The notes under the pieces: generated by a model
Seen by the model: the letters and a program-made list of their open reading frames with translations, nothing else
Database searches by the model: none
Told to the model about the DNA's origin: nothing
Assembly: GCF_021917145.1 (NCBI RefSeq)
Contig: NC_061081.1
Span: forward strand, 2,090,562-2,154,561
DNA from: Hypomesus transpacificus
Lineage: Eukaryota > Chordata > Actinopteri > Osmeriformes > Osmeridae
DNA: 64,000 nucleotides
Reading direction: 5' to 3'
Program-made: the position numbers and the translations under genes
In this document: piece after piece, positions 4,623 to 57,743 of the stretch
Layout: each line of letters starts with the position of its first letter
Position numbering within the stretch: position 1 is the first letter of the stretch

Positions 4623-7600
4623 TGTATATACAGTGCCCTCCAAAAGTATTGGAACAGTGAGGCCAATTCCTTTATTTTTGCTGTAGACTGAAAACATTTG
4701 GGCTTGACATCAAACGATGAATGTGAAACCAGAGATCAACGTTTCAGCTTTTATTTCCAGGTATTTACATCAGGATCTGATGCACAAATTAGAAAATATC
4801 ACCTTTTTGTTCGAACCCACCCATTTGTCACGTGAGCAAAAGTATTGGAACATGTGACTGACAGGTGTGTTTTGTTGCCCAGGTGTGTCCTATTACATAC
4901 ATTATTCAATCAATAAATACCACTGAATGTCTACACTCAGGTTCAGATTGGGTAAGATAGGTTTTGTCTATGCAGACTGTATTCAGAGGTGAAAACAACA
5001 TGAAAACCAGAGCGCTGTCTTTGGGTGAAAAACAAGCAATTGTGAGTCTTAGAGAAGATGGAAAATCAATCAGAGCCATTGCAGAAACATTGACCATAGC
5101 CAGTACAACCATTTGGAATGTCCTGAAGAAGAAGAAAACTACTGGTGTACTAAGTAACAGACGTCGAACAGGTAGACCAAGGAAAACATCAGCAGTTGAT
5201 GACAGAAACATTGTGAGAGCTGTAAAGAAAGACCCTAAAACAACTGTTAGTGAGATCAGCAACAACCTCCAGATGGCAGGAGTGAAGGTATCACTATCTA
5301 CTGTTCGCAGAAGACTTCATGAACAAAAGTACAAGGGCTACACCAGAAGATGCAAACCACTCATTAGCAAGAAGAATAGGAAGGCCAGGCTGGAATTTGC
5401 CAAAAAGTACAGAGATGAACCTCAAAAATTCTGGGACAAAGTTTTATGGACTGATGAGACAAAGATTAACTTTTACCAAAGTGATGGAAAGGCTAAAGTT
5501 TGGAGAAAGAAAGGAACTGCTCATGATCCCAAACACACAAGCTCATCTGTGAAACACGGTGGAGGTAATGTCATGGCTTGGGCTTGCATGGCTTCTTCTG
5601 GGACGGGCTCATTAATCTTCATTGAGGATGTAACACATGATGGCAGCAGCAAAATGAACTCGGAAGTCTACAGAAACATTTTGTCTGCCAATTTAAGGAA
5701 AGATGCAACCAAACTGATTGGCAGAGCCTTCATCATGCAGCAAGATAACGACCCAAAACACACTGCCAAAACAACAAAGGAGTTCATCAGGGGCAAGAAA
5801 TGGAAGGTATTAGACTGGCCAAGTCAATCTCCAGACTTAAACCCTATAGAGCATGCATTTTACCTGCTTAAGAGGAGACTGAAGGGAGGAACCCCACAAA
5901 ACAAACAACAACTGAAAGAGGCTGCAGTGAAAGCCTGGGAAAGCATCAAAAAGGAAGAATGCAAAAGTTTGGTGACGTCAATGGGTCACAGACTTGCTGC
6001 AGTTATTGAAAGCAAAGGATTTGCAACTAAATATTAAGTCTTATTCACTTAAATATGTTTTAAGTATATCTGTTCCAATACTTTTGATCACATGACAAAT
6101 GGGTGGATTCAAACAAAATGTGATATTTTCTTAGTTGTGCATCAGATCCTGATGTAAATACCTGGAAATAAAAGCTGAAACGTTGATCTCTGGTCTCACG
6201 TTCATTATTTGATGTCAAGCCCAAATGTTTTCAGTCTACAGCAAAAATAAAGGAATTCGCCTCACTGTTCCAATACTTTTGGAGGGCACTGTATAATCAA
6301 ACTTGTATTTTATTTTATATAATACTCTCATGAAGGGATAAATAACTTAAACTTGCATCTTTGACCAAATTATCATTTTGAAATCATTATTTGTCGTTGA
6401 ACCATGAATGCTAATCCGTTCTGATGTAACCCGCTCAATCAGACTTCCACCGTGCTCACTGATGCTTGATGTAACCCGCTCAATCAGACTTCCACCGTGC
6501 TCACTGATGCTTGATGTAACCCGCTCAATCAGACTTCCACCGTGCTCACTGATGCTTGATGTAACCCGCTCAATCAGACTTCCACCGTGCTCACTGATGC
6601 TTGATGTAACCCGCTCAATCAGACTTCCACCGTGCTCACTGATGCTTGATGTAACCCGCTCAATCAGACTTCCACCGTGCTCACTGATGCTTGATGTAAC
6701 CCGCTCAATCAGACTTCCACCGTGCTCACTGATGCTCTTTGTCCCTGCAGGCTGTGGACATCACGTCGTGTGGTAACTTTGCGGTGGTGGGCCTGTCCTC
6801 TGGCCATGTGGATGTCTACAACATGCAGTCAGGGCTCCACAGGGGACACTATGGAGAGGAGAAGGGTAAACACACTGTCTCTTTCTACATCTTTCACTGG
6901 CTTTTTCCCATGACTTACTGACATCATTATCACACCGTCTTGCTTTCTCGTCATCCGCCAATGAACTCACTTATCCACTCATCCATGTTCAAATGATGAA
7001 CTCACTCACACACCCACTGACCTCTCGCAACCATGACAATTGAACCCAGCACAAGTATACTGATTCATCCCATCTCTGCCCCCCCCACCCCCCAGCCCAT
7101 GATGGACCGGTGCGAGGTGTGTGTGTGGACGGACTCAACCAGCTGACAGTCAGTGTCGGCGCAGACCGACTCATCAAGATCTGGAAGTTTAAGTCTAAGA
7201 AGCTGGTCCACTGCATGAGCCTGTCATCCTCGCCCGCAACCATAGATCTACACAGAGACAGGTATGAAGTTAGCATAGCTAAGAAACTAGCATCACAACC
7301 AAGGAACAAACAAGCATGGGTAAGGAATTAGCATGGCTACCTGCTTAGCCCAAACAGGCAAGGAATGAGCACTGGTCTCACCGCAGTGAGATCACGAATA
7401 AGAAACTAGCATCATGGCTGAGGAATTAGGGATTTAACAATGAGGCATAGGAAGTTACATTGCTAATGATCATTGCTACATAACATGGCTTACTAGCTAC
7501 AGGTAAGAGACTGTAAGGCTTGCTACATAGCCACGGCAAAGCCACGGCAAAAAAAAACAAGACTAAATATTGTATTTCTCTGACTCCTGGACCAGCGGTA

Positions 7601-54536: not shown

Positions 54537-55330
54537 TAGTGATGGGAAGTTCGGTTCTTTTTACTGATTCGGTTCTTTGAATCTCGTTCAGTAAAATGAA
54601 CGAATCTTTTTTCGAGTCATTTGTTCATTTCAGAATAATTTATATTATATTTATTTATATTTCAAAAAAAATTCCTGCATTAAAATAATGTATCATGAGT
54701 TTGTATGATTTGGTCATGTATTATCACACTAGCATTTAATTATCACGTCAAACAATTACACTGCACTAAACTGTAAGTGTAAATGTAAAGTGAAAATAAC
54801 AAAACCAGTCAGTATGATGACTTGAGCGAATATCATTCATTCACGTCTTACTAAAACAGCGGCCACGCGAAAGGGAATAAGGAAACTGTTTCCTCTACTA
54901 AAAAATACAATGCGGGTCACGTGAAAAAAGGATCCAAAGACTCGTAGAAAGACCGAGTCGGGGAAGGAACTAATCATTCGTTTCCTCTAGCTACAGAGCC
55001 TATGCAGGTCACGTGAAAAATTATCCAAAGACTCGTAGAAAGACCGAGTCGGGAAAGGAACGAATCGTTCGTTTCCTCTTGCTACAGCCTATACAGGTCA
55101 CGTGAAAAATGACCCAAAGACTCGTAGAAAGACCGAGTCGGGAAAGGAACGAATCGTTCGTTTCCTCTAGCTACAGAGCCTATGCAGGTCACGTGAAAAA
55201 TGATCCAAAGACTCGTAGAAAGACCGAGTCGGGAAATGAACGAATCACTCGTTGAGAGGACTCGTTACTCCCGAGTCCTTATAAGGATTCGTTCAAAATG
55301 AACGAATCGTTCACGAACGACACATCACTA
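54537..55330. mobile_element. Non-autonomous hAT-type transposon with 8-bp target duplication
   Basis: The 794-bp element starts TAGTGATGGGAAGTTCG and ends CGAACGACACATCACTA, inverted termini matching at TAGTGATG and in the following TTCG-rich part. It is flanked on both sides by the identical octamer ATAGAGAG (54529-54536 and 55331-55338), the duplication size made by hAT transposases. The interior has no transposase but carries four tandem units of about 90 bp. Confidence 0.85.
54905..55250. repeat. Four tandem units of about 90 bp inside the hAT element
   Basis: Units begin at GGTCACGTG (54914, 55008, 55096, 55188; spacing 94, 88 and 92 bp). Each contains the E-box palindrome CACGTG, then CCAAAGACTCGTAGAAAGAC and a near-palindromic CGAATCGTTCG-type block. 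Confidence 0.88.
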
Positions 55331-55540
55331 ATAGAGAGAAGTATATTCTGTTGTATGCCAGAATGTTTTTGCATTCTCACCAACTGGACTGCATATCAGA
55401 CAGGAACAGAGCTCAATTAATCAGAATAAATTAACAGGTTACACCTGGTTTGCTCTCCGACATTGGTAGGACCAGGCATTCGTCTGCAAAGCAAAACAAG
55501 TTTCTTAAAACAGGGATTTGCCCTTACTAACGTTGTAGCC

Positions 55541-55801
55541 ATGTGCATTTGCATGGACATGTTCATTTCAAACGTTGCAGATAGACGTAGACTACACATG
55601 GGACCAAACTATAACATGAAATTCGAGGTCCCTTCGAGGTTCAAAATCCAAGCAACAGTAAATCGCAGAGCAGACTTGCCTAGACCGATGTTGATTGGCG
55701 GATCATTAGGCTACACCTGCGTTCACTGGGACAAGGAAACCAACTTTAGATTGATTGCAAATGGTTACAATCGAACAATCGAATTTGATCTTGAATTATA
55801 G
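55541..55801 (+). other. Upstream open frame before the huluwa candidate (86 codons)
   Basis: An ATG-initiated frame (MCICMDMFISNVADRRRL...) ends with TAG 17 bp before the ATG at 55819 and in a different frame. It could be an upstream ORF in the 5' UTR, a separate small protein, or chance. I recognise no family; its composition is not low-complexity. Confidence 0.25.
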
Positions 55802-55818
55802 ATACTATTTCTGATGAG

Positions 55819-57286
55819 ATGTCGCAAATAAGCCCATCACCAAACTCAAATCTCGCTGAAGGTTTACCAATCACAAGTTTGACCCTACTTGTTCTCCTTC
55901 TTATACCATGCGTAGTTCTTTTGCTACTGTTGAACTGCCTATTTCTCGGTTACAAATTCCTAATATTATCCAGGAGAAAAAGAAAACGAGAGGATTCTGA
56001 GAGCACACTTCTACAGTCGAGTCACTCGACCCACCAGAGAATCACCAGAATATCTGAAAAACCCTTGTTACCCAATCAGGATGGGAAAAGAACATATTTG
56101 TCCATATCGGAACCAATGTTGGTACCACCCGTGACATCTTCAAGAACCTCTTCACGGGGAAATGTTGCTTTGGATCCGAGAGGGATTCACTTCTTGCGGC
56201 CAAGTGGAACGACAGGAGGACGATCGGGGTCTCTGAGGTCCCCCAGTACAATCCTGGCGACCTCGTCAACAACGCCCAACTCGAGGCCCGACTTGCACCG
56301 CAAGTCCTGCATGTACAGCAAAAGCAAATGGTGCTGTAGCGCCCCAGTCTTACCGCTTTCCAGTGACTCTGAGACGGAACGGACACACCGTGTGCCCCCC
56401 AATACACCATGTATCACAGAATTAAACGACGCTGTTTCTGGTGTAAGTAGACCAGCTATGTGTTATTGAGATGCTGGACCTTAAGTGATCCCTGATATTG
56501 TCTCCTTGGAAACATGTTTGCCATCGGCAGGTTGAGTTGGGCCATATGCGCCGCAGCAGTACAATGGAGCTGCAGAATGTAGCGATCGACTCTCCTGAGC
56601 ACTTGTTTGACAAGGTCCTGTTTGAGAGCGAGTACGCTTGCATCCCCCCCGAGGCTTCCTGTATTGCCGCATCTGTCAACTCCACCACCGTGGGGCCAGG
56701 ACTTGACAGCGACTTTGGTGCAAGTGCAGGTATGGGTCTCCTAAAAGTAAATCAATCAGCGGTTCTTCTATACGAGACATAGCCTACAGCAGGGGTACTC
56801 AATTAGAAACTCAAAAGTTCCATTCACCAGATTTCTATTCCGGCATTGATGGTTTATTTTTTTGGCCCTTACCTCAGAGTTCTGGGGGTAATTTTGTTCA
56901 ATGTCTCAATGCGTTGTGTCATAGTGACGATTCACGTTAGCTCTACCACTGTTGACAAGGGCAACCGTCTCATTGCAGATTAAACCGGTTTTGTGCTCCC
57001 CACCGGCAACACAAATGCATACTTGTCAGTCCATTCGGCCTACAGCTATTACATCATGCTCGAAACTTATGGCATATAATGTCTCTTATTTCGGTTTTCT
57101 TCCATGTCCTCAGGTGTCTCTCTCCGGATCTTGTCCGCTGACAGCGACGGTCTTTGTAACGGGGCCTCTGCCTCCGCCTTGGAGTGGGATTACTACTACT
57201 ACGACCCTTGCTACGTCAGACAGAACAACATACCCAAGCACAAACACCACCGACCTGCAATGCATAGCAGGCAGTACTGGGTGTAA
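55819..57286 (+). CDS. hwa: Huluwa-like single-pass membrane protein (maternal dorsal determinant), 3 exons, 331 aa
   Basis: Huluwa is a maternally supplied plasma-membrane protein that in zebrafish and Xenopus triggers dorsal axis formation by promoting Axin degradation and stabilising beta-catenin without Wnt ligand. Exons: 55819-56442, 56531-56729, 57114-57286 (TAA); donors GTAAGT and GTATGG, phases agree. A short extracellular N-terminus (MSQISPSPNSNLAEGLP) precedes one hydrophobic segment at about 20-45 (LLVLLLIPCVVLLLLLNCLF). A basic stop-transfer stretch (RRKRKR, 52-57) and a long Ser/Thr-rich cytoplasmic tail follow. The tail holds PPNTP at 193-197, close to the PPNSP motif reported as needed for Axin binding, and RRSST at 215-219 within HMRRSSTMEL. 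It ends HHRPAMHSRQYWV with a tyrosine run (WDYYYYDP) before it. The identification rests on architecture and remembered motifs, not on a search. There is no signal peptide. The gene lies tail-to-tail with vcp. Confidence 0.72.
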
Positions 57287-57611
57287 GAACGGTGCTTTTT
57301 AAGTGTAATGTTTTAATGTATTAACTATTTATTTTGTTGCAATGTATTTTTATTTTCGAAAAGAAAACCACGTGTTAGCCATAAACCACAATCATTTTAG
57401 CACTACCTTTAGTTTGTCATCTTTGAAAAGCATTCACTTTCTTTGTTTTTACAGTCGTTTGACACTTTCAATCACTTATATTCACATTACGGTACTTTTC
57501 ACTTCATGTTAAGATTGTCCCACGTTTTCTGAATGAAGCACTTTGTTATCACATATACTTTTAATATCCACTGTTGTTGCCTCAAATGTTTTCTAAACTT
57601 CACTGATATCA

Positions 57612-57617
57612 AATAAA
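57612..57617 (+). terminator. hwa: Likely polyadenylation signal of the huluwa candidate
   Basis: AATAAA about 325 bp after the stop codon, in AT-rich sequence. The minus-strand vcp transcript probably ends within about 100 bp of this point. Confidence 0.55.
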
Positions 57618-57650
57618 GAATGTATATAATACACAACAAATCCTACATCA

Positions 57651-57743
57651 TTTATTATTTCAGTTCAGCTTTAGAATAATGACAATAAGAAACGCTATGC
57701 AAAAGATTTCACACATTGATGCATTTTCTCCAGTTAATTTATT
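57651..57743 (-). terminator. vcp: vcp polyadenylation signals
   Basis: On the minus strand AATAAA occurs at 57743-57738 and again at 57656-57651, giving a 3' UTR of about 0.5-0.6 kb after the vcp stop at 58251. Confidence 0.5.

Follow-up and report, generated by a model that had tools for sequence, protein, structure and literature searches.

Gene content of the locus and the predicted gene

The window, that is the whole stretch of 64,000 nucleotides of Hypomesus transpacificus DNA analysed here (contig NC_061081.1), carries a candidate huluwa (hwa) gene on the forward strand at 55819-57286. In zebrafish and Xenopus the membrane protein Huluwa (Hwa), supplied with the egg, is the maternal determinant that initiates the dorsal organiser. 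Upstream of the candidate lies a gene with DnaJ and DnaJ_C domains (+) and downstream lies vcp (-), where the original prediction had named dnajb5 and vcp; the upstream neighbour is identified by its domains as a DnaJ-type gene. From the ATG at 55819 to the TAA ending at 57286 three exons, with GT and AG at both introns, encode 331 amino acids in an unbroken frame (Table 1). The splice sites are predictions from the DNA, and the earlier three-exon model of a 331-residue protein proved exact, its ends and splice borders being reproduced. When the bases of 55401-57700 were shuffled 1,000 times, a stop-free stretch of at least 208 aa arose on the + strand in a single shuffle. Exons E1-E3 of zebrafish hwa are named in a figure legend (PMC12758452, in the part available), and the gene predicted here likewise has three.

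On both sides of the coding region minor features were noted. Just 5' of the ATG a stop-free frame of 123 aa (55430-55801), without a Pfam match at E 0.01, is probably due to chance. The AT-rich stretch behind the stop codon (GC 0.30) contains CPE-like TTTTAAT at 57311 and 57559, TTTTAT at 57348 and GCACTT at 57538, the last of which we take to be of the miR-430 type. Such motifs may suit a maternal mRNA, to which, in a stretch so rich in AT, they point weakly.

Table 1. Features of the candidate hwa gene in the 64-kb window
Feature	Positions	Strand	Description
hwa exon 1 (coding)	55819..56442	+	624 nt open frame; N-terminus, transmembrane helix, basic stretch, tail with PPNTP
Predicted transmembrane region	55873..55962	+	about residues 19-48, limits judged from hydropathy
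Basic stop-transfer stretch SRRKRKR	55969..55989	+	residues 51-57, after the helix
LSISEP block	56098..56115	+	counterpart of VSVSEP; zebrafish S168 forward primer 14/20 nt, in frame
PPNTP	56395..56409	+	residues 193-197; presumed phospho-acceptor Thr196 = zebrafish Ser168
Intron 1	56443..56530	+	88 nt, GT...AG, phase 0; donor GT 56443, acceptor side GGCAG
hwa exon 2 (coding)	56531..56729	+	199 nt, holds RRSST
RRSST block	56549..56563	+	residues 215-219, exon 2
Intron 2	56730..57113	+	384 nt, GT...AG, phase 1; donor GT 56730, acceptor side CCTCAG
hwa exon 3 (coding)	57114..57286	+	173 nt, stop TAA
YDPCYV block	57200..57217	+	counterpart of YDPSYV; qPCR reverse primer (reverse complement) 16/20 nt, rank 1 in the window
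Likely 3' untranslated region	57287..57617	+	motif scan only; AATAAA at 57612

Architecture of the predicted protein

Hwa proteins are recognised by a short, non-essential N-terminus, one transmembrane helix and a large disordered cytoplasmic tail, and the same order of parts was found here. In 19-residue windows, Kyte-Doolittle values above 1.6 are confined to window starts 11-34, with a peak of 3.09 at residue 23, and beyond residue 60 no window exceeds 0.82; one membrane helix is therefore likely. The N-terminus ahead of it comprises about 18 residues. Behind residue 50 there are 281 residues, 63% of them S, T, P, R, K, D, E, N, Q or G; the predicted cytoplasmic tail is large and presumably disordered, disorder being judged from composition only. 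The short N-terminus, single helix, basic stretch, long tail, PPNTP and RRSST described in the original prediction are thus all present. It can be added that the zebrafish Hwa construct which was purified lacks the first 46 residues (PMC11576741, in the excerpts available), and that the helix of the protein studied here ends near residue 48.

Compared with zebrafish Hwa as far as the published fragments go, the predicted protein has in common the MSQ start, the single helix, the long polar tail, VSVSEP/LSISEP, PPN(S/T)P and YDP(S/C)YV. In contrast to Ser168 of zebrafish, the acceptor here is Thr196, located 28 residues later in the chain (196 vs 168). PPN(S/T)P is also common to Hwa of frog, sea squirt and amphioxus, by the published description (PMC11576741, excerpts). 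The tails of LRP5/6 offer a more distant likeness, as their PPP(S/T)P is a proline-directed phospho-motif in a membrane-anchored tail which feeds beta-catenin signalling (same excerpts), however the protein studied here carries a single PPN motif and lacks a large extracellular domain. Membership of LRP5/6 was considered and rejected, as the 331-aa sequence holds one PPNTP, no PPP(S/T)P, and about 18 residues before the helix.

Comparison with zebrafish fragments

The reference for zebrafish hwa consisted of the primers and the phosphopeptide printed in the Methods of PMC11576741, in the part of that paper available; the huluwa literature searched yielded no Hwa sequence beyond it. Three zebrafish fragments, 16 residues in total, had not been used by the original prediction and formed the independent test, with shuffles and window pseudo-proteins serving as controls. 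All three align with the predicted protein, each in frame and in the zebrafish order, with 12 of the 16 residues identical: MSQL/MSQI at the start codon, VSVSEP/LSISEP, and YDPSYV/YDPCYV (zebrafish first).

At the DNA level the start-region genotyping primer (reverse complement) matches 17 of 23 nucleotides at the predicted start, which is rank 1 over both strands of the window, and it sets the zebrafish ATG onto the predicted ATG. The S168 forward primer shares first rank with one other position in the window. Shuffled primers equalled the match in the gene region (+ strand) in 2 of 400 cases for the start-region primer, 11 of 400 for the S168 forward primer and 0 of 400 for the qPCR reverse primer. 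In a six-frame protein search of the window, another place scored as well as the gene for VSVSEP, and likewise for the PPNSP peptide, and YDPSYV came clearly first (score 30 vs 23).

Taken collinearly, the three fragments score 70. The highest scores were 56 among 20,000 protein shuffles and 48 among 2,395 window pseudo-proteins, so that neither set reached it; the pseudo-proteins were 331-aa six-frame pieces with stops removed (2,409 minus the 14 that hold the gene's own blocks). Addition of the PPNSP peptide and RRSST raises the score to 123, where 5,000 shuffles gave at most 84 and 2,393 of the 2,409 pseudo-proteins at most 79; both motifs had already been used by the original prediction to pick the gene, hence this higher score is not independent.

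The remaining primers gave no placement. The qPCR forward primer, presumed to be coding, reaches at best 13/20 ungapped in the gene, a value equalled by 118 of 400 shuffles in the gene region, and its three translations find no convincing position; it lends the hwa reading no support. For the wild-type upstream forward primer the best match in 54900-55840, where it was expected, is 12/20, and 37 places elsewhere in the window do better. The S168 reverse primer is assumed to be intronic, although one of its frames is open (GRVLICH); its best match in the expected stretch, 56380-56560, is 12/24, and 250 other places surpass it. Non-coding DNA need not be conserved, and the misses of these two primers neither support nor exclude hwa.

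Identity of the gene

Besides the architecture, PPN(S/T)P, RRSST about 20 residues past it, and homology outside these two motifs mark a Hwa protein. PPNTP occupies the place of the first, RRSST follows at that spacing (from the acceptor to the last RRSST residue there are 22 positions in zebrafish, 168 to 190, in the excerpts of PMC11576741, vs 23 here, 196 to 219), and the homology elsewhere is provided by the three collinear zebrafish fragments. The huluwa reading of the original prediction is supported by these fragments, which are collinear, in frame and beyond what shuffles and the rest of the window deliver. Judged from the sequence, the gene at 55819-57286 is very probably a true hwa orthologue, with a probability of about 95%.

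It could be argued that the protein is a member of a different family of small single-pass membrane proteins, for example TMEM154, and that its Hwa-like motifs are coincidental. TMEM154 (PF15102) is indeed the only Pfam match listed, at residues 21-72, that is the helix and the residues directly after it, but at E = 0.071 it attains 13.4 bits vs a cut-off of 30.3. The match spans only the helix and its neighbours and leaves the MSQI start, LSISEP, the RRSST spacing and YDPCYV unexplained; such a coincidence is considered extremely unlikely. For the 331-aa protein no Pfam family was found above cut-off and no relative was found in PDB; because no Pfam family exceeds its cut-off, hwa copies of this kind are easily left unnamed.

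As a hwa orthologue, the gene looks like a further, ordinary member of the known huluwa group. That group had been described in the original prediction as known mainly from zebrafish and Xenopus, which is too narrow, since Hwa of amphioxus and sea squirt has been tested (PMC11576741) and hwa of halibut has been reported (PMC12722812), both according to excerpts of these papers.

Copy number and a duplicated vcp/DnaJ block

DNA and protein searches of the genome (437,198,280 bases, 376 contigs) detected one hwa locus, and the other protein matches listed have E values of only 1.23 and 1.75. A second vcp with introns and a second DnaJ gene were found on contig C169 (1565056-1586900), where they lie tail to tail (convergent) as in the window and enclose an aldo/keto reductase fragment. 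The second vcp is 92.7-99.5% identical to that of the window in six blocks and 81% in one block at the 3' end, and the second DnaJ gene shows 54-76% identity in three protein pieces. A sensitive, uncorrected tblastn search for hwa in this block gave nothing in gene order: the best E values were 0.007 (hydrophobic residues 5-42, within the stretch of the DnaJ gene) and 0.010 (within the end of vcp), and the stretch separating vcp from DnaJ yielded nothing better than 0.27. Two vcp/DnaJ blocks and one hwa fit a duplicated block with a single hwa retained.

The PPN(S/T)P motif and the choice of kinase

In zebrafish the S168A substitution nearly abolishes Hwa activity, S168T is largely active, and the motif, reported to be conserved across chordates except birds and mammals, has been tied experimentally to Tankyrase binding and Axin degradation (PMC11576741, in the parts available). 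The Ser-to-Thr form is accordingly not new, as PPN(S/T)P and an active S168T are already described there. Since S168T is largely active and chordates share PPN(S/T)P, the Thr form is expected to work. The term "Axin-interacting motif" used in the original prediction does not fit the available text of PMC11576741, which shows Tankyrase binding and Axin degradation rather than direct binding of Axin.

Arg at +4 of zebrafish PPNSPVLR is preferred by Cdk16 (PMC11576741, excerpts). This Arg is a zebrafish feature rather than one that defines the Hwa family, and it is absent here, where +4 of PPNTPCITE is Thr200. With the loss of Arg at +4, weaker use of Cdk16 is predicted. The string T-P-C-I-T fits the pattern of a primed site of the GSK3 type, and Thr at +4 may create a possible primed GSK3 site. 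It would be a larger step to assume that the Hwa switch is wired here to a different kinase, with priming at Thr200 controlling the acceptor, so that another order of kinases would trigger the same axis determinant; on the sequence in hand this appears unlikely. Once confirmed, an orthologue with a Thr acceptor and no Arg at +4 would be a naturally occurring variant of the S168 switch already published, on which the kinase question can be tested.

The canonical tankyrase-binding motif has the pattern R-x-x-small-x-G. No such motif was found in the 331-aa protein, in which RTSSRG at residue 109 alone fits R....G.

Proposed function and the upstream transposon

Hwa of this fish is most likely a single-pass plasma-membrane protein with a disordered cytoplasmic tail. 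Phosphorylation of Thr196 in PPNTP would lead to the recruitment of Tankyrase, which would result in degradation of Axin; in the early embryo beta-catenin would thereby be stabilised even in the absence of a Wnt ligand. By analogy with zebrafish and Xenopus we infer the membrane location and phosphorylation of the protein, its action on Tankyrase and Axin, its maternal supply and its role in inducing the axis. Zebrafish Hwa is reported to act independently of Wnt ligands (PMC11576741), and maternal hwa has been reported in zebrafish oocytes (PMC11652594) and in halibut eggs (PMC12722812), according to the parts of these papers available.

Upstream of the gene lies a transposable element of 794 bp (54537-55330). 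Its ends read TAGTGATG, an 8-bp duplication (ATAGAGAG) flanks it, and repeats of roughly 90 nt occur inside it. Presumably it is hAT-like and non-autonomous. The genome search for it scored 40 of 896 candidates and gave at least 80 matches, the window's own included; among the 80 matches listed, 78 are 98-100% identical to the element, which therefore is young. Another copy complete from end to end was located at C22:5046837.

Such a neighbour raises the question whether a diverged hwa could have ceased to set the axis, for example through silencing by the transposon. A young, high-copy element in this place would give that reading some ground, and in the zebrafish mutant tsu01sm a retrotransposon insertion inactivates hwa transcription (PMC11652594, excerpts); the loss of Arg at +4 could be read in the same direction. 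The element ends 488 bp 5' of the ATG, but this is the distance to the ATG and not to the transcription start. Loss of the axis role would also have to be reconciled with a frame intact over three exons, with preserved motifs and spacing, and with a genome in which no second hwa copy was detected, and it is regarded as very unlikely.

Other features of the window

Far from hwa, an open frame of 358 aa at 4961-6037 encodes a transposase of the Tc1/mariner type (Pfam HTH_Tnp_Tc3_2 and DDE_3). The left gene order, read from single exons in 7044-39899, comprises a WDR36/Utp21-like propeller (E 2.9e-15, yet below the Pfam cut-off), a protein kinase, a ZZ zinc finger and a thrombospondin C-terminal domain. 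The exon with the ZZ zinc finger is KCMF1-like by eye.
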